Below are positions 11,510 to 61,915 of a DNA stretch of 64,000 bases, piece by piece. The stretch comes from Limosilactobacillus sp. WILCCON 0051 (GTDB taxonomy: Bacteria > Bacillota > Bacilli > Lactobacillales > Lactobacillaceae). The stretch spans positions 1,612,001-1,676,000 of the forward strand of contig NZ_CP154878.1 in the NCBI RefSeq assembly GCF_039955095.1. The letters are read 5' to 3'. A program made the translations under genes and the position numbers. The notes beneath the pieces are model-generated. The model was given only the letters and a program-made list of their open reading frames with translations, was not told the origin of the DNA and ran no database searches. Numbering within the stretch: the stretch's first letter is position 1; each line of letters opens with the position of its first letter.

Positions 11510-13081
11510 TTAGATGTTTTTATAGATTTCATTCCAGTTAGCTTCATTTTCTTGGTTGATCTTTTTGAGCTTTTGTGCTCGTTGAAATCTTCCCTTCATA
11601 ACTTGAACAGAACGAACTCCTAAATCATATGCATTGGCAAAATTGATTCTTAATAAGATTCTGACGTCTATATTACCGTTTCTAACTATTGCGTCCGTTA
11701 TATCGACTGCTGCAAAAGTCGATGTTGACACCAACAGTAAAGTTTGTAAATCCAGTTTATTAGCTATTGGAATGCATTCTTTCCATTCCTTTCCATAATA
11801 AAAATGATTTTTATAAACCCAATATAACCGTATTAAAGTTTCCATTATCAAAACAGGCATTGACTGAGCAACAAAGGCTCGAAAATCTAATCCTTGCTTA
11901 TAAAGCCATTCTGCAACTCCAGCAAAATCCTTGTCTTTGCCATTAACATTAAAATTACCAAACTTAAACTGCTGAGTAACTGAATAAAATGGCATTGGCA
12001 ATCCTGCTCCACGACCAACACTTTTGGATGTACCAGCAACGTCAGAACAAGTATGGCCAAACCAGTTCTCAACAGCCTTAATAACTTTTTGGGGACCTAG
12101 CTGTAAATCTTTTACTTGATCTGCTTCTTTGGATGCTGTATATACTCGTTTGAGCATTCCATCACTAATGAAAGTACTTTTACCATCTAATTGATCTAAA
12201 ATGCTAATAAATAATCCTAGAGGCCCGATATCATGGGATAAAGAAAACAAATGGTGATTTGAAGGATTCATGCCTGCGATACTATCATTTATAATGTTCG
12301 AATTATTAGAAGCATCATAGGAAACCTTAAAATGATTCTCAAGCCAACGAATTGCATCATTCTTTGAATTTATTTTTTTACTATATGGTTCATTTCGACT
12401 AGCAAACTCCGCATACTTTGTTACCAATTTATCAACAGTGCCGTCTACTTTTTGGCCTAAAATCCCCTGCTCACTTGCATATTTATTATTACCATCAGTA
12501 ATCGCTCCAACTAAAAATGCATCAACTAATCCGCCAATAATCCCTACGATACTAGCAAAAACATAATCTTCTTTTTTTAATTTAGACAATTCATATTTAT
12601 CGGACAATAAGGCACTCATTTTATTAATCTCTGCATCACTCAAGCAGGCAAAATATGGATTATCAAGGCTTAAATTAAATTTTGCAGCGTATGCTTCACT
12701 TTCAGACAACAAGTCCTCCCAATTGCCTGTGGCGTCAACATAATCCAAGTGTGGCAATTTAATCTCAGGGCTTTCAGGTTCAGATGGTTTCACCTCAACC
12801 CTAAGATTCTCTATCTCTTCAATTTCACTAGTCTTAACATTAAGATTATCCAGATCAATCATATTTAATAATGATTGCGCCTCTTTAATTTTGCTTTGGG
12901 TGTCATTTATTCTTTGTTGCTGATTAGCATTTATTTTTTCTTGAAGATCCAAGTCTGCAGACATGTTACTAGAAATCTGCTTTAGTTCATCAAGCCGTTC
13001 TACAGCTTGGTCTGCCTCATGCTGACCAACTGAGACAACCTTTGCCGCCTCGTCTAATTCATCCAGTTTATCTTTTTCCAT
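11510..13081 (-). CDS. Coiled-coil/membrane partner of the dynamin-like GTPase (unknown family)
   Basis: A 523-residue protein that I do not recognise. Residues about 1-75 form a heptad-rich coiled coil (DELDEAAKVV and following), then comes an acidic, proline-containing linker (about 90-115). A hydrophobic, glycine-rich segment at about 178-198 (FASIVGIIGGLVDAFLVGA) looks like a membrane helix, and a large mixed domain reaches the C terminus. No nuclease or protease motif is apparent. The ATG has AAGGA eight bases upstream. It is the second gene after the dynamin-like GTPase, 78 nt apart and in the same direction, so the two are probably cotranscribed and act together. A partner or effector role in defence or membrane remodelling is inference. 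Confidence 0.75.
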   Translation of the reverse strand: MEKDKLDELDEAAKVVSVGQHEADQAVERLDELKQISSNMSADLDLQEKINANQQQRINDTQSKIKEAQSLLNMIDLDNLNVKTSEIEEIENLRVEVKPSEPESPEIKLPHLDYVDATGNWEDLLSESEAYAAKFNLSLDNPYFACLSDAEINKMSALLSDKYELSKLKKEDYVFASIVGIIGGLVDAFLVGAITDGNNKYASEQGILGQKVDGTVDKLVTKYAEFASRNEPYSKKINSKNDAIRWLENHFKVSYDASNNSNIINDSIAGMNPSNHHLFSLSHDIGPLGLFISILDQLDGKSTFISDGMLKRVYTASKEADQVKDLQLGPQKVIKAVENWFGHTCSDVAGTSKSVGRGAGLPMPFYSVTQQFKFGNFNVNGKDKDFAGVAEWLYKQGLDFRAFVAQSMPVLIMETLIRLYWVYKNHFYYGKEWKECIPIANKLDLQTLLLVSTSTFAAVDITDAIVRNGNIDVRILLRINFANAYDLGVRSVQVMKGRFQRAQKLKKINQENEANWNEIYKNI

Positions 13082-13159: not shown

Positions 13160-15406
13160 TCAATTCTTATCATTAATCAATTGGCGTTCTCTTTCTCGAT
13201 GTTCGTTACAAATCTTTGTGCCGGCTGATGAAAACTTCTTAATAGTTTGAAGCAATTGATCAATTTGTTCTTCCATGCCACTAAGTTGTTGTTCACTATC
13301 TGTTAACCGTTTTGAAAGTTCTTTCTTACGATATGTTGCTTGAATCATTGCATCTGATAAATAATTAATATCTTTTATAATTAAAGATTGTGACCCTACT
13401 AACTTCTTAATTTTATTTTGAAGTATCTCAATTTTCATAGATTCTTGGGGATTATTTGGCTTACTCCGTCGTTCCATGCCTTTATAAGCCGCTAAACCAG
13501 CCGCACTTGCTCCTAATACCGCAAGTCCTAATCCGCTCGTGCCTAAAATTGCTAAACCCCAGCCTACATCAATGAAACCAAACTCAGTTATGCTTACAAC
13601 GGCACCAGTTAATGCTAGTGTGGAAACTGACGTAACACTAGATACTCCTAATGATGAACTAATTTCTTTAATTTTTTTCATTCTTTCCTTATATTCATCC
13701 CCAGTTAGCTTATCGTCTATTACATCGTGATTGGTTTTTTGACTAATGACGATCAGAGAAACTTTGTCTTTTGAAATATTAGCTTTCTCTGCAAGCTTTA
13801 ATAGTATTTCATCATCTTTCCATGAATTTATTTTTTCTTCATCAAATGTCGATAAAATATTGCTTATTAATAATTGTAGAATCTTATCCCTATTATCCTC
13901 TGGAATTAAATTTTTTAATTCTATAAATTCATCAATGATATCATCTTTTTTATTACTAAATCGATATTCTCTTATCTTGGTATCAACTTCTTCGGAAACA
14001 TTTAATCCAGCTTCTATTTCTGCAAAGTTTCGGATATCTTTTTCTGAAAATTCATTATCAGAATCTAAATAAAGATAAATAACTTTTAAATAATGATAAG
14101 AGCTTTCATTTTTTGGATAGTGGGTCTTAAAGTACTGATAAAGATTCTCAACCCTGGGCTTTCGCCATTCTGATTGTCCTTGATCAATCACTTTAAAATC
14201 ATTTCGAATATGTTTTTTAAGTTTTTCTTCACTAAAGTTATCCAAAGAGTTATCCAAGATTTTAAATATTTCTTCTAAAACAAATCTGATTAGATCAAAA
14301 AGGTCCTTATCCTGTTGTCTTAGCTCATTTAAATAATTATTTTTGATAAACTCGTTTAAAAAGTCTGCTAAACCAGTTACTCCGGAATAAGCCATCAAGC
14401 GTTCATAGCATTCATTGAACGAATTATTTACTGCAACTGGTGCATATTGATTTAAATGAAGATCCTCATTAAGCATAAAATTGTTTGCAATCGTCAATGT
14501 ATTTTGAATTTTAGTCAATTCATTTCTAGAGTAGCTTGACATCAATTCTTGCTTGGAATGATCACTGAATGTCAGTTCTCCCCATTCATCCATAACGATT
14601 TCTCGATTCTTTATGTATAGCTGCAAATCCAATGCAAATTGGGCACTGACCGGAAAAATTCTGGGATTTTGAATAGAAAACTGATTTTCTAAATATTCAC
14701 GGACATTCTCCAATACATTGGTAATATCTTCATTCGTCTTGAACTCATCCATTTTATTGATCACAAAGACAACATTAGGCTGCGTCTCAATTATTCTATC
14801 CAACAGCTGCTTTTCGCTGTCCGTCCCCAACTGAGTTCCATTCATGATAAACAGAGTGAGTTCTGCTTGATGATGATCCAAAAATTCAAACAATACGTTT
14901 TGATGAGCTTTATTCAAGGCATTATTCGGCCCCGGAGTGTCAATAACAGTTACTGGAGCATCCCCAGCAAACGGTATTGGCAAGGATGCGTCAACCCTAA
15001 CCGCCTCAGACAATTCATTCATGGTTGTTAGTTCATCGATTGAGACTGACCCACTGGCAATACAATTGTTATCTTCATCAAAAGCCTCAACATCCTTCTT
15101 ATCTTGTGAATTGAAGAGTCTCATGATGGCTGAAGTACATGCTTCCTGACTGGCCGGAACAACCCTGCTAGCTAACAGCGAGTTGATCAGTGTTGACTTT
15201 CCAGCACTCATTGGGGCAGCAATTAATATTTCCGGCTGTTTTAAGCTAGTGAAAGTTTTAATCAGCTTATCCAACTTTTTTAAGGGCAGATTGCTGATTT
15301 GACTTCTCCTGATTTCTCTCAGCAGTCTTAGATTTTCATCAATATTTGTTTGTATTTCTTTAATCTGTTCATCAATGTTAGGCAATCGAGAGTTCTCTTT
15401 TATCAC
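13160..15406 (-). CDS. Dynamin-like GTPase with C-terminal membrane hairpin
   Basis: A large dynamin-superfamily GTPase, about 748 residues from the preferred start. The GTP motifs are complete: G1 APMSAGKST (about 63-71), a G2 threonine in EACTSAI, G3 DTPGPN (about 155) and G4 NKMD (about 215). A long helical stalk region follows, then two glycine/alanine-rich hydrophobic stretches (about 590-645) that look like a membrane paddle or hairpin, and a terminal coiled coil. GTG at 15406 is chosen because GGTGAGG lies six bases before it; an ATG at 15412 touches that same sequence and a TTG at 15448 has no site. Bacterial relatives remodel membranes or act in stress and phage defence. Its leader is unusual (see 15451-15752). 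Confidence 0.88.
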   Translation of the reverse strand: MIKENSRLPNIDEQIKEIQTNIDENLRLLREIRRSQISNLPLKKLDKLIKTFTSLKQPEILIAAPMSAGKSTLINSLLASRVVPASQEACTSAIMRLFNSQDKKDVEAFDEDNNCIASGSVSIDELTTMNELSEAVRVDASLPIPFAGDAPVTVIDTPGPNNALNKAHQNVLFEFLDHHQAELTLFIMNGTQLGTDSEKQLLDRIIETQPNVVFVINKMDEFKTNEDITNVLENVREYLENQFSIQNPRIFPVSAQFALDLQLYIKNREIVMDEWGELTFSDHSKQELMSSYSRNELTKIQNTLTIANNFMLNEDLHLNQYAPVAVNNSFNECYERLMAYSGVTGLADFLNEFIKNNYLNELRQQDKDLFDLIRFVLEEIFKILDNSLDNFSEEKLKKHIRNDFKVIDQGQSEWRKPRVENLYQYFKTHYPKNESSYHYLKVIYLYLDSDNEFSEKDIRNFAEIEAGLNVSEEVDTKIREYRFSNKKDDIIDEFIELKNLIPEDNRDKILQLLISNILSTFDEEKINSWKDDEILLKLAEKANISKDKVSLIVISQKTNHDVIDDKLTGDEYKERMKKIKEISSSLGVSSVTSVSTLALTGAVVSITEFGFIDVGWGLAILGTSGLGLAVLGASAAGLAAYKGMERRSKPNNPQESMKIEILQNKIKKLVGSQSLIIKDINYLSDAMIQATYRKKELSKRLTDSEQQLSGMEEQIDQLLQTIKKFSSAGTKICNEHRERERQLINDKN

Positions 15407-15450
15407 TAACATCCTCACCACTTTCAACTTATATTTTAAGGAACGCAAAA

Positions 15451-15484
15451 AGGCCTACTGCACCCCTTTGGATACAGTAAGCCT
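15451..15484 (-). terminator. Terminator-like hairpin in the leader of the dynamin operon
   Basis: On the minus strand AGGCTTACTG pairs with CAGTAGGCCT (10 bp, one U-G) around a 14-nt loop and is followed by TTTTTG. It lies between the leader ORF and the GTPase start codon, only about 45 nt before it, so it would act as an attenuator of the downstream genes or as the terminator of the short leader transcript. Confidence 0.65.
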
Positions 15485-15516
15485 ATAAGCAGAAAACTTG
15501 ACAGAATCAGCGTGCA

Positions 15517-15693
15517 CTAAATAATCGGCACGATTGCACGATTGCACGATTGCACGATTGCACGATTGCACGATTGCACGATTGCACGATTGCACGATTG
15601 CACGATTGCACGATTGCACGATTGCACGATTGCACGATTGCACGATTGCACGATTGCACGATTGCACGATTGCACGATTGCACGCATCTTCAT
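15517..15693 (-). CDS. Octapeptide-repeat leader peptide
   Basis: A 58-residue ORF that begins MKMR and then repeats the unit AIVQSCNR about six and a half times before ending AIVPII and TAG. The peptide repeat is a direct result of the 8-bp DNA repeat, since three DNA units make eight codons. What argues for real translation is its start: an ATG five to six bases after GGGGGGAG, and a promoter with 17-bp spacing just upstream. No function for the peptide itself is visible. Its value may be as a ribosome path: this frame stops before the downstream hairpin, whereas one of the other two frames runs through to 15455, inside the hairpin. Confidence 0.45.
   Translation of the reverse strand: MKMRAIVQSCNRAIVQSCNRAIVQSCNRAIVQSCNRAIVQSCNRAIVQSCNRAIVPII
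15528..15684. repeat. Perfect 8-bp tandem repeat, about 19.6 copies
   Basis: The unit GCACGATT repeats without a mismatch for 157 bp. Every frame on both strands is open through it, because the 24-bp cycle contains no stop. The perfect copies imply recent slippage-type expansion and probable copy-number variation. Position: between a promoter plus start codon and a hairpin, upstream of the dynamin-like GTPase. Confidence 0.97.
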
Positions 15694-15723
15694 CTTGTCT
15701 CCCCCCAATTTATGTATAATTAA

Positions 15724-15752
15724 TTTATACCGTTTACATTCTAAAACGTCAA
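15724..15752 (-). promoter_or_regulatory. Promoter of the leader/dynamin operon
   Basis: On the minus strand TTGACG (15752-15747) and TATAAA (15729-15724) are exactly 17 nt apart. The predicted start is near 15717, about 24 nt before the leader ATG at 15693. No other comparable promoter lies between here and the GTPase. Confidence 0.7.
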
Positions 15753-15902: not shown

Positions 15903-16877
15903 ATGAAAACATACAAATCAACTACCAGTGAACGGCAGCTTTTCATCTATCAGCAATTGACTGCCGGTCGCCATATTCAAAAATCACAGCTAGCCAAACA
16001 GTTTGCCGTTGACGCGCGGACCATTCAGCGCGATTTTGCCAGTCTGCGAGCGTTTATGGACGAATATCTGCCCGAATACACGCTGAATTATGACCGTCAA
16101 AACAATTCCTACTGGCTGTCTGCCAACGGAATCGGCTTAAACAAGGCGCAGTGTCTTTGTCTCATCAAGATTCTAACTGCCAGTCGTGCCCTCCCCAAAG
16201 ATCAGCTGATCGAGCTTTCCAATCGCCTTTTAAAAATTCTCGACGCAAAAGATGCTCAAAAAGTCAAACAATTGATTAGCAGCGAGCAAAGCACGTATCA
16301 GCCGCTGCGCAATCTTCAAAATAAAGACTTGATGAATCTGATCTGGAACTTTTCGGAATATACTCTCCTGCATCGAACCATTCGCATCGACTATCGCAAT
16401 CAGGGTGGCCATATCAAAGCACACACTATTATTCCGTTGGCGCTGACGTTTTCTGACAACTATTTCTACCTCATCGGCTACACTAATACATATCAAAAAA
16501 ACATCATCTACCGTTTGGATCGCATCATTGATTATCACATTTCGCAAAAAAGCATCCCGCAGTCCGAATGGCAGGCTCATCAATGGAATGAGGGACTGAC
16601 CAAGAAAAAGCTGCAGCTGATGTATCCCGGCAAAAACGTTAAGATTCTTTTTGAATATCGCGGTGTCGTTGAAGCGGCTCTGGACAAATTCCCGCTTTCC
16701 AAAATAGTTCAACCAAAAACCGATCAGCAGCCAGTAATCATTGAAGTCGAAACTTATGATATCGGCGCGATGATGTGGCTGCTTAGTCAAAAAGACATGG
16801 TTACGGTACTTGAGCCAGAATGGTTTAGGGAACAGATGATCACGACTCTGCAAAAAATGCTCAATAATTATCAATAA
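15903..16877 (+). CDS. WYL-domain transcriptional regulator
   Basis: A 324-residue protein with an N-terminal DeoR-type helix-turn-helix (about 8-65; QKSQLAKQFAVDARTIQRDF is the reader helix region) and a WYL domain (about 150-230) with the pattern IPLALTFSDNYFYLIGY. WYL domains bind nucleic acids or nucleotide ligands, and such regulators often sit beside phage-defence genes and repress or activate them. Length is normal. The ATG follows AGGAAATTCC. It is divergent from the dynamin operon, with its leader and repeat between them, so it is the natural candidate to control that operon; no operator could be identified. Confidence 0.85.
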   Translation: MKTYKSTTSERQLFIYQQLTAGRHIQKSQLAKQFAVDARTIQRDFASLRAFMDEYLPEYTLNYDRQNNSYWLSANGIGLNKAQCLCLIKILTASRALPKDQLIELSNRLLKILDAKDAQKVKQLISSEQSTYQPLRNLQNKDLMNLIWNFSEYTLLHRTIRIDYRNQGGHIKAHTIIPLALTFSDNYFYLIGYTNTYQKNIIYRLDRIIDYHISQKSIPQSEWQAHQWNEGLTKKKLQLMYPGKNVKILFEYRGVVEAALDKFPLSKIVQPKTDQQPVIIEVETYDIGAMMWLLSQKDMVTVLEPEWFREQMITTLQKMLNNYQ

Positions 16878-20693: not shown

Positions 20694-20948
20694 TTAGTGA
20701 TTATCATCCAACTCAATCGAATCAATATCGTCAAAAGCTATCCCATTTCCATAAGAATTGCTGCCAGTTGTGTTATAGATAATGGCATTTAGTTCAGGCT
20801 CATCATCTTCATCGTTGCGTTGGAATTCATCATCCGTATCTACAATGTATAAATGCAATGTGCGTCCATCTTTCATATGAATAACCACCCATGAACCAGC
20901 AAAATTATTATTAACATCCCATAGATTGGTTTTCGGTGTTATTTTCAT
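20694..20948 (-). CDS. Acidic 84-residue protein, copy A (unknown family)
   Basis: An 84-residue protein very rich in Asp and Glu (two acidic runs, DTDDEFQRNDEDDEPEL and the C-terminal FDDIDSIELDDNH) around a beta-type core (WVVIHMKDGRTLHLYIVD). The ATG follows AAAGGAG ten bases upstream. It differs from the copy at 21771-22025 at only one residue (Ile versus Val), so the duplication is recent or under selection. Strong acidity is a feature of DNA-mimic and some immunity proteins, but no function can be claimed. Confidence 0.6.
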   Translation of the reverse strand: MKITPKTNLWDVNNNFAGSWVVIHMKDGRTLHLYIVDTDDEFQRNDEDDEPELNAIIYNTTGSNSYGNGIAFDDIDSIELDDNH

Positions 20949-21770: not shown

Positions 21771-22025
21771 CTAGTGATTATCATCTAACTCAATCGAATC
21801 GATATCATCAAAAGCTATCCCATTGCCATAAGAATTGCTGCCAGTTGTGTTATAGATAATGGCATTTAATTCAGGCTCATCATCTTCATCGTTGCGTTGG
21901 AATTCATCATCCGTATCTACAATGTATAAATGCAATGTGCGTCCATCTTTCATATGAACAACCACCCATGAACCAGCAAAATTATTATTAACATCCCATA
22001 GATTAGTTTTCGGTGTTATTTTCAT
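21771..22025 (-). CDS. Acidic 84-residue protein, copy B (unknown family)
   Basis: Same protein as at 20694-20948 except for Val in place of one Ile, with the same upstream AAGGGGATG-type leader (copy A has AAAGGAG). The near-absence of protein change together with several silent or non-coding differences in the surrounding DNA hints that both copies are still under some constraint, although the time since duplication may simply be short. Function unknown. Confidence 0.6.
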   Translation of the reverse strand: MKITPKTNLWDVNNNFAGSWVVVHMKDGRTLHLYIVDTDDEFQRNDEDDEPELNAIIYNTTGSNSYGNGIAFDDIDSIELDDNH

Positions 22026-31856: not shown

Positions 31857-33686
31857 TTATCTTTCGACAACCAGGCCCTTGAACAGTCCGTAGACAAAAT
31901 CGCTGGCATCGAATTTCTCCAGATCGGTAACCTTTTCGCCCAGCCCAACGTACTTAACCGGCAGATGCAGCTCATTGCGAATGGCTAAAACAATCCCACC
32001 ACGCGCCGTTCCATCCAGTTTGGTCAGCACGATCCCAGAAACGTCCGTGCTTTCCTTAAACAGCTTGGCTTGATTCAGCGCGTTTTGACCAGTCGTTGCA
32101 TCCAATACCAACAAGACCTCATGTGGCGCATCTGGAATCTCACGCGCCATGATCCGCTTCATCTTGGCCAGCTCGTTCATCAGGTTGACCTTGTTTTGCA
32201 GCCGTCCTGCCGTATCAACCAGCAAAATATCGTAGTTTTCTTCCTTGGCTTTCTTGACCCCGTCAAAAACAACGGCCGCTGGATCACCATTGGCAGGCCC
32301 CATGACGATATCAACGCCATCGCGCTTAGCCCAGACATCCAGCTGCTCAACGGCCCCGGCTCTAAACGTGTCACCAGCTGCCAGCAGGACGCGCTTGCCT
32401 TCATCCTTAAAGCGCTTGGCCATTTTACCGATCGTAGTCGTCTTGCCGGCACCATTGACCCCAACGAACATGATCACGGTTGGACCTTCCTTGGCAAAAT
32501 TCAGATCGGGGTTTTCATCCTTGCCAGCGTCTTCGTACAGATCCACCATCTTTTCAATGATGACGTTGGAGACATCCTGCTTGCTCTTGGCATTTTGCAG
32601 CTTAACTTCTTCACGCAGCTCATCAGAGATCTTCATCGCCATGTCATAGCCGACGTCTGATTCGATCAACAGGTCTTCCAAGTCTTCAAAGAAATCTTCG
32701 TCAACGTGGCGGAAATTGGCTAAGAAGTGATTCAGTTTGGCCCCAAAGCCGGTCCGTGACTTTTTCAGACCGCGATCATACTTTTCAGTCGTCGATTCTT
32801 CGACTGAGGATGCCGAAACAGCCTCTTCATTATTTTCGCTGTTTGGCTCAGCCACGGCGTCTGTTTCAGCTTGAACTGCCGCGGCTGAATCATGGTCAGC
32901 AGCTGACTGTGGTTCAGCTGTCTTGGCTGATTCTTCAACGGTTTCTTCGGCTGCGACTGCTTCTTTGACGGTCGCTGTAGTCGCGTGCTCATCAGCTGCG
33001 GTTGAACTGGTATTTTCAACGCTGGCAGACTGCGAGGCGGCCTGTTCAGCTGTTTTTTCATCGCTGATCGCTTCTGATGCGGCTTGTGACTGAGCGGATT
33101 TAACCTGAGCGGCTTGTTCCTCAGCGGCAGCAGCACTTTGCATGACGGCTTCGGACTGCGCTTTTTCAATGGCAGCCTGTTCTGCTTGACGCGCGGCATC
33201 AGATTGAGCGGCTTGTTCCTCAGCGGCAGCGGCACTTTGCTTGGCGGCTTCGGACTGTGCTTTTTCAATGGCAGCCTGTTCTGCTTGACGCGCGGCATCG
33301 GATTGAGCAGCTTGTTCTTCGGCTGCCGCGGCCGATTCCTGCATGGCTGCTGCGGTTGCTTCATCAATTTCGGCAGCTGCTTCTTTTTGATCATTTGCCG
33401 CACTGGCTGCTTCGGATTCAACTGCGGTACCTTGACTGGCCGCACTTTCACTTACCCCAGATTCAGCAGCAGTACCTTGGCTGGCCGCACTTTCACTTAC
33501 CCCAGATTCAGCAGCAGTACCTTGGCTGGCCGCACTTTCACTTACCTTAGATTCAGCAGCCGTGCTTTGGCCAGTCGCACTTTCACTGGCAGCGGCCTGG
33601 CTTTCAGCATTTTCACTGGCCGCTGATTCAGGGGTTTCTTCTTTTTTCTGCTTGGACTTACGACGGAAAATATCAAATAATCCCAT
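31857..33686 (-). CDS. ftsY: SRP receptor FtsY with long acidic repeat domain
   Basis: A 609-residue receptor. The conserved NG core occupies about 305-609: GVNGAGKTTTIGKMA, DTAGRLQNK, TKLDGTARGG and a C-terminal YGLFKGLV. The N-terminal 300 residues are far longer than in most relatives and consist of Ala/Ser/Glu/Gln low-complexity repeats. One 14-residue unit (AAESGVSESAASQG type) occurs three to four times and a 28-residue unit (AAAAEEQAAQSDAARQAEQA) twice. Such acidic A domains mediate membrane contact. Start ATG (MGLFDIF) is conserved. It is downstream of smc by 20 nt and upstream of ylxM. Confidence 0.96.
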   Translation of the reverse strand: MGLFDIFRRKSKQKKEETPESAASENAESQAAASESATGQSTAAESKVSESAASQGTAAESGVSESAASQGTAAESGVSESAASQGTAVESEAASAANDQKEAAAEIDEATAAAMQESAAAAEEQAAQSDAARQAEQAAIEKAQSEAAKQSAAAAEEQAAQSDAARQAEQAAIEKAQSEAVMQSAAAAEEQAAQVKSAQSQAASEAISDEKTAEQAASQSASVENTSSTAADEHATTATVKEAVAAEETVEESAKTAEPQSAADHDSAAAVQAETDAVAEPNSENNEEAVSASSVEESTTEKYDRGLKKSRTGFGAKLNHFLANFRHVDEDFFEDLEDLLIESDVGYDMAMKISDELREEVKLQNAKSKQDVSNVIIEKMVDLYEDAGKDENPDLNFAKEGPTVIMFVGVNGAGKTTTIGKMAKRFKDEGKRVLLAAGDTFRAGAVEQLDVWAKRDGVDIVMGPANGDPAAVVFDGVKKAKEENYDILLVDTAGRLQNKVNLMNELAKMKRIMAREIPDAPHEVLLVLDATTGQNALNQAKLFKESTDVSGIVLTKLDGTARGGIVLAIRNELHLPVKYVGLGEKVTDLEKFDASDFVYGLFKGLVVER

Positions 33687-61179: not shown

Positions 61180-61915
61180 CATTGCATTTCTTCGGCAGCC
61201 AACTGATAATCGGTTTAACGGCATCAAGTTCACTGTTCATAGCGTTCTTAAGTTGGTTAACAATAGCTCTGGCAACTTCAGAATCGCCTGTTCATTGCAT
61301 TTCTTCGGCAGCCAACTGATGATTGATTTAACGGCCTCAAGATCACTGTTCTTAGCGTCCTTAAGTTGGTTAAAAATAGCTCTAGCAACTTCAGAATCGC
61401 CTGTTCATTGTATTTCTTCAGCAGCCTACTGGTAATCGGTTTAACGGCATCAAGTTCACTGTTCATAGCGTTCTTAAGTTGGTTAACAATAGCTCTGGCA
61501 ACTTCAGAATCGCCTGTTCATTGTATTTCTTCAGCAGCCTACTGGTAATCGATTTAACGGCTTCAAGATCACTGTTCATGGCGTCCTTAAGTTGGTTAAC
61601 AATAGCTCTGGCAGTTTCAGAATCGCCTATTCATTGCATTTCTTCGGCAGCCTACTGGTAATCGATTTAACGGCGTCAAGATCACTGTTCATGGCGTCCT
61701 TAAGTTGGTTAACAATAGCTCTGGCAACTTCGGAATCGCCTATTCATTGCATTTCTTCGGCAGCCTACTGGTAATCGATTTAACGGCGTCAAGATCACTG
61801 TTCATGGCGTCCTTAAGTTGGTTAACAATAGCTCTGGCAGTTTCAGAATCGCCTATTCATTGCATTTCTTCGGCAGCCTACTGGTAATCGATTTAACGGC
61901 TTCAAGATTGCTGAC
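61180..61915. repeat. Tandem array of 113-bp units, about 6.5 copies
   Basis: The block starting CATTGCATTTCTTCGGCAGCC recurs at 61180, 61293, 61406, 61519, 61632, 61745 and (partial) 61858, exactly 113 bp apart, with a few per cent divergence. 113 is not a multiple of 3 and no frame reads through the array, so the roughly 60-codon ORFs predicted in it are artefacts. Inner minus-strand frames read a helical peptide (SEVARAIVNQLKNAMNS) per unit, hinting that the unit came from a coding fragment. Confidence 0.95.

Follow-up and report, generated by a model that had tools for sequence, protein, structure and literature searches.

A repeat-containing leader, probably a phase-variable transcription attenuator, in front of a Bunzi-like operon of Limosilactobacillus sp. 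WILCCON 0051

An operon that likely encodes a Bunzi-like anti-phage defence in Limosilactobacillus sp. WILCCON 0051 is preceded by a leader which is probably a phase-variable, translation-controlled transcription attenuator. Both lie in the stretch of 64,000 nucleotides that was analysed as a whole (contig NZ_CP154878.1, positions 1,612,001 to 1,676,000; hereafter the window). The mechanism of such an attenuator is known; the anti-phage operon as its cargo and the 8-bp repeat unit are new. The parts of the leader, its reading frames, the predicted stability of its hairpin and the leader of one sister species (genome G026) were read directly from the sequences. On the minus strand, the order is promoter, GGGGGGAG, ATG, 19.6 perfect CGTGCAAT units, terminator and GTPase operon. 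The features of the leader region are as follows.

15752..15724, minus strand: predicted promoter of the leader transcript, TTGACG-17 bp-TATAAA (read from the sequence; both boxes also present in G026)
15706..15699, minus strand: leader ribosome-binding site GGGGGGAG (read from the sequence; identical in G026)
15693..15517, minus strand: leader ORF as assembled, with 19 full units and 58 codons, ending at the TAG at 15519-15517; predicted OFF
15684..15528, minus strand: octanucleotide array (CGTGCAAT)19.6 (TRF), with no stop in any of the three leader frames
15509..15507, minus strand: stop for 3k+2 units (20), 22 nt upstream of the hairpin
15484..15447, minus strand: predicted intrinsic terminator, 15-bp stem and 4-nt loop (15484-15451), then TTTT (folding and terminator scan)
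15457..15455, minus strand: TAG for 3k units (18, 21), within the 3′ arm of the hairpin; predicted ON; this TAG also ends the G026 leader

The −35 box TTGACG begins at 15752 and the −10 box TATAAA begins at 15729, with a spacer of 17 bp. The promoter scan omitted this pair because it requires T as the sixth base of the −10 box, and on the minus strand it listed a 9/12 pair at 15766-15738 instead. The start codon of the leader is the ATG at 15693. The array is 157 bp long and consists of 19.6 uninterrupted copies (100% match, TRF score 314). A first-pass annotation of this DNA had described 19.6 perfect copies of an 8-bp unit, with a 17-bp-spaced promoter, GGGGGGAG and an ATG upstream; the copies were found at 15684-15528 and the upstream elements at 15752-15693, as described. 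The array is not a product of chance. No second stretch with 2.5 exact CGTGCAAT units exists elsewhere in the 2.36-Mb genome. In the window, no array of at least 4 perfect copies was found at the other unit lengths from 4 to 12 bp (first array per length), and the TRF list holds no other 8-bp array of more than 2.0 copies. When the repeat pattern and the terminator pattern were searched in viral_contigs, each gave 0 matches. An Rfam search with E up to 1 gave two matches, both far below the gathering scores. Thus, as in the pil1 attenuator described below, a leader ORF with a ribosome-binding site and an ATG encloses a tandem array whose unit is not a whole number of codons, and each CGTGCAAT unit gained or lost shifts the leader frame.

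The window holds further repeated sequences. Two almost identical ORFs of 84 aa (MKITPKTNLWDVNNNFAGSW...) lie about 1.1 kb apart on the minus strand, at 20694-20948 and 21771-22025. TRF also reported a tandem repeat at 61180-61908 (113-bp unit, 6.5 copies, 93% matches) and a 99-bp tandem repeat of about 2.7 copies at 33106-33368, which adjoins further repeats of 45-48 bp. The segment 19151-19231 is 83-94% identical to a sequence on 21 Ligilactobacillus salivarius plasmids; among the 20 matches listed, none has an annotated feature beneath it.

The hairpin at 15484-15451 has a predicted folding energy of −28.0 kcal/mol (z −6.9), and none of 200 shuffled sequences was equally stable. The sequence directly after it is TTTTGCG. 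As in pil1, a predicted intrinsic terminator is therefore placed between the leader and the operon. The first-pass annotation had seen a hairpin between the array and the GTPase gene; it is present there, but its stem has 15 bp rather than the 10 bp given.

The reading frames were computed for n = 0 to 23 full units followed by CGTGC, and the leader stop cycles with n modulo 3. When n is 3k+1 (19 in the assembly), the stop lies 32 nt upstream of the hairpin. The loss of one unit, or the gain of two, moves the assembled allele into the long frame. Over the whole range of n, the stop moves with the repeat number from well upstream of the hairpin to its inside, as in the pil1 type. It had been claimed earlier that every frame is open through the repeat, with stops at 15517, at about 15508 and at a TAG at 15455-15457. 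The array was indeed stop-free in the three leader frames, and the computed stops (15519-15517, 15509-15507 and 15457-15455) agree with this claim. As a chance control, the 43-nt spacer between the array and the hairpin was subjected to 20,000 mononucleotide shuffles. At least one frame ran into the hairpin while another stopped at least 20 nt upstream in 66% of the shuffles, and the strict pattern of exactly one frame in and two out appeared in 13%. The frame geometry is thus common by chance, and by itself it is weak evidence for a switch.

We infer that this leader is transcribed, that its array slips, that read-through depends on the frame and that the operon acts in defence, and we propose the following mechanism. 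Slippage of the 8-bp array would set which frame the leader ORF takes downstream of the repeats. With 3k units (18, 21), ribosomes would enter the 3′ arm of the terminator and block its folding, and RNA polymerase would continue into bnzA-bnzB (ON). With 3k+1 units (19, as assembled), ribosomes would halt 32 nt before the hairpin, the hairpin would fold and transcription would end (OFF). With 3k+2 units, translation would end 22 nt before the hairpin, presumably giving an OFF or intermediate state.

The first-pass annotation had already proposed a frame-switched attenuator, and this is still the best explanation of the anatomy, the G026 leader and the pil1 precedent. However, its statement that no system with such a layout had been described does not hold, because pil1 and pil3 of Streptococcus gallolyticus share the layout (Danne et al. 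2014, PMC3894217). According to that paper, pil1 of strain UCN34 has 22 GCAGA units in a leader ORF with a terminator downstream, and out-of-frame gain or loss of repeats extends the leader into or beside the hairpin, upon which transcription rises. The effects of chloramphenicol, of deleting one terminator arm and of abolishing the leader start were as expected. Mutants with stops in every frame downstream of the repeats gave a single low peak, which unexpectedly lay slightly above that of low cells. Where the stop was at least 28 nt upstream of the terminator, isolates had a mixed, mostly low expression profile, and isolates with the stop immediately upstream of the hairpin, or with a leader through it, showed many high cells. 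The switching rate was 5 x 10^-3 per cell per generation. The paper also describes a pil1-like arrangement with frame-linked variants for pil3 and, for the pil1 promoter in Lactococcus lactis, expression that was heterogeneous but separated less clearly. The work is cited in a review (PMC5536039). By the stop-distance pattern of pil1, the window allele with its distance of 32 nt is predicted to be OFF and the in-arm 3k alleles are predicted to be ON.

The window leader resembles those of pil1 and pil3 in having a promoter, a ribosome-binding site, a leader ORF with an array whose unit is not a multiple of three, an intrinsic terminator and an operon, and in that changes in repeat number shift the stop from a place before the hairpin to one beside, within or past it. 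In contrast, the unit is the 8-bp CGTGCAAT in the window and the 5-bp GCAGA in pil1 and pil3, and likely anti-phage genes stand in place of pilus genes. Moreover, the switch was experimentally demonstrated in pil1, whereas it is a prediction in the window. Because the repeat unit and the genus differ, the window leader and the pil leaders are probably of separate origin. As in trp-type attenuation (discussed in PMC3894217), leader translation would decide terminator formation, but neither a stalling signal nor a ligand was noticed for the window leader, and the choice would be set genetically by the repeat number. Among the matches listed from the open-licence PMC literature (titles and abstract starts), there was no second repeat-leader attenuator besides that of Danne et al. 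Nor was a repeat-leader attenuator on defence genes among the matches listed there, where phase-variable methyltransferases and BREX appear. In simple-sequence-repeat contingency loci, for example phase-variable methyltransferase genes, the array is located in the regulated gene or its promoter. Slippage of a unit not divisible by three would switch expression in the window leader too; however, the window array lies in a separate leader ORF, which would act on a terminator.

Downstream of the terminator are two genes.

15406..13160, minus strand: BnzA-like protein, 748 aa, GTG start proposed, ATG at 15412 possible (Pfam Dynamin_N 1.7e-15; PADLOC BnzA 3.6e-47)
13081..11510, minus strand: BnzB (PADLOC BnzB E 1.1e-144, profile positions 1-503 of 504)

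We take the PADLOC models PDLC03833 and PDLC03834 (BnzA and BnzB) to represent the Bunzi anti-phage system. The operon shares with Bunzi a full-length BnzB, a BnzA-like C-terminal part and an identical gene order. Residues 434-744 of the BnzA-like protein match positions 161-459 of the 544 positions of the BnzA profile (E 3.6e-47). Its N-terminus differs from that of Bunzi proteins: a dynamin-type GTPase domain is found where the usual BnzA N-terminus would be. We call the operon Bunzi-like because BnzB is full length but the N-terminus of BnzA is unusual, and we consider it a likely anti-phage defence with an unusual BnzA. The first-pass annotation was right about a GTPase gene downstream of the hairpin (Dynamin_N) but missed the anti-phage identity. 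Dynamin_N was absent from all five BnzA proteins of other Lactobacillales scanned with Pfam, and these five match the BnzA profile nearly end to end. None of the 20 plasmid records with a match covered 80% of the window BnzA-like protein. A search with the whole protein against 398 genomes of the class gave matches in 232 genomes; among the matches listed, own gene aside, there was no full-length relative, and each covered a part of the query, mostly the GTPase domain. In genome_contigs, 0 of 19 pattern matches were confirmed as close relatives of BnzA, and 1 of 16 was confirmed for BnzB (Lactiplantibacillus xiangfangensis). A weak BnzB match elsewhere in the own genome (E 7e-4) contains three internal stops and was taken as chance.

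For comparison, 12 loci with a BnzB homologue were used (L032, L059-L062, L066-L069 and L078-L080), which are partly dependent: L078-L080 represent a single operon type, found on three Lactococcus plasmids, and L032 shares its genome with L059. The ORF directly before the BnzB homologue has 549-625 aa in 11 of the 12 loci, and L059 has two ORFs of 406 and 157 aa. The first gene was confirmed as BnzA by the PADLOC model in 5 of the 12, and was assigned by position or BLAST in the rest. No tandem array (TRF, score at least 40, period up to 100) was found within 500 bp upstream of the first ORF in any of these 12 Bunzi-type operons; the 320 bp upstream were also read directly. Thus, the window operon differs from these 12 in being preceded by a repeat leader.

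The leader is flanked on its other side by a divergently transcribed gene.

15903..16877, plus strand: divergent HTH-WYL regulator (Pfam HTH_11, WYL, WCX)

Its counterparts in G026 and in a third species (G032) are 97% and 96% identical to the window protein. The WYL protein is a possible regulator of the leader. Two Lactococcus plasmids encode WYL proteins 31-32% identical to it next to Bunzi or dynamin operons, a finding that suggests that such a neighbourhood of WYL and dynamin or Bunzi genes recurs. On these plasmids (L080:1-8512 and L123:2036-14612), the related WYL regulator lies beside zinc-ribbon genes as well as the Bunzi or dynamin operon.

Among 50 genomes of the genus, the leader is present in two, the own genome and G026. 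When the leader DNA was compared with 396 genomes of the family, seven had a match (two candidates scored per genome in the matches listed). In the five besides G026 and the own genome, the match is confined to 31-51 nt of the promoter region (E 7e-6 to 9e-4). Three of the five were read and had no repeat and no such leader; these three were therefore taken as similar promoters only. In G026, the promoter, ribosome-binding site, ATG, array start and hairpin are found at the corresponding chromosomal place, beside the WYL gene. The DNA identity between G026 and the window is 95.7% over window positions 17027-15656, 95.2% in the far flank and 95% over 76 nt of the leader tail. Because the leader diverges about as much as its flanks, the comparison does not show special conservation. 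The G026 array has about 3.6 units, namely three full ones (one with a base change) and a partial one, and seems too short to slip often; it would hardly switch. The G026 leader has 31 codons and ends at the TAG common to both species, inside the 3′ arm of the hairpin; its allele is predicted to be in the ON state. A 15-bp indel separates the two leaders, and the long frame is kept. The sole substitution in the G026 stem changes C-G to U-G, and all 15 pairs are kept. The leader tails differ by three substitutions, each of which alters the peptide encoded by the long frame, so that selection on the peptide is not apparent. The idea that the array codes for a functional repetitive peptide was rejected, given that G026 has little over one 8-residue period. 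One additional frame also passes the hairpin in G026; therefore, the one-in, two-out design is not conserved.

The two sequences diverge right after the terminator, and different operons lie behind it. The G026 operon is as follows.

L083:10044-17669: three successive Dynamin_N GTPase genes and a gene for an 842-aa protein with a CFI-box C-terminal domain

None of its four proteins had a PADLOC match at E 0.01, and this operon is possibly an undescribed defence system. G026 also carries, on a different contig, a BnzB-like gene; a BnzA match to go with it was not found. Since the leader is common to both species and the operons differ, the shared unit is the leader and not a gene. G032 has the corresponding WYL gene and far-side gene, with 28 bp in place of leader and operon. 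Judged from these three genomes, the locus appears to be one where cargo is swapped and the leader forms a separate unit.

We favour the phase-variable attenuator because its layout is complete, with promoter, ribosome-binding site and ATG before the array and a strong terminator before the operon, because the pil1 mechanism was shown by experiment with a corresponding layout, and because G026 keeps the leader, the in-arm TAG despite the 15-bp indel and the 15 stem pairs. Slipped-strand switching usually acts on long, pure arrays with a unit length that three does not divide, such as this one. The proposal is weakened by the chance-prone frame geometry, the short G026 array, the additional frame that passes the hairpin in G026, the peptide-changing tail substitutions, the unremarkable conservation of the leader and the all-frame-stop anomaly of pil1. 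In a simpler explanation, leader and terminator are an ordinary attenuator, or just a leaky terminator by which the operon is kept low; the array would then be a neutral expansion of one lineage, and its repeat number would have little effect on read-through. G026 does have leader and terminator with only about 3.6 units, and the geometry is not rare; however, the position of the array, exactly between leader ATG and terminator, and its unit of 8 bp, which changes the frame, speak against this explanation, and in pil1, the closest layout studied, frame matters strongly (PMC3894217). We therefore regard this explanation as unlikely. That repeat number works through RNA structure or leader length, and not through the reading frame, seems quite improbable. 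The 278-nt leader does fold at −101.7 kcal/mol (z −4.0), and its array then forms a ladder of short helices in which the leader start can also take part; but the terminator hairpin forms independently in this fold, and a strong ribosome-binding site and an ATG precede the array, in G026 too.

Antisense control is a further alternative, in which transcription from a plus-strand promoter runs through the array in the direction of the WYL gene and disturbs the leader transcript. The candidate is the following site.

15498..15525, plus strand: promoter-like site TTGACA-16-AATAAT (11/12 consensus match)

Four promoter-like sites are listed in the region, and this one scores highest; but 2.4 (sd 1.8) such sites are expected by shuffling, and its −10 box lies in the 15-bp stretch missing from G026, which makes this control very improbable. 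The least credible alternative is classical translational phase variation, in which the array is the 5′ end of a longer GTPase frame and is shifted in and out. The long leader frame is the GTPase frame, separated from it solely by the TAG at 15457-15455. However, G026 has this TAG too, and there the TTG start of the next gene, counted 92 nt from the T of TAG, lies in a different frame; in the window, the terminator lies in between and the GTPase gene has its own start codons. An array as part of the GTPase gene was rejected, since TAG and terminator intervene.

If the phase-variable attenuator operates as proposed, a mechanism shown for two pilus operons of one Streptococcus would extend to another genus, another repeat unit and, above all, anti-phage immunity. 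To our knowledge, the defence genes for which random switching is known are mainly those of restriction-modification and related methyltransferases. A wider reading, which we put forward tentatively and hold to be somewhat less than even in probability, is that, in sister species, a single chromosomal hot spot has one promoter-leader-terminator with different dynamin-GTPase operons under its control. As a portable cassette, the leader would make whichever defence operon lies behind it phase-variable, and a minority of cells would have the costly immune system ON before phage arrives. If the switch is real, copy number modulo 3 should predict the phage resistance of single colonies, and the annotation of a defence system in a genome would not guarantee that the sequenced cell line has it ON.
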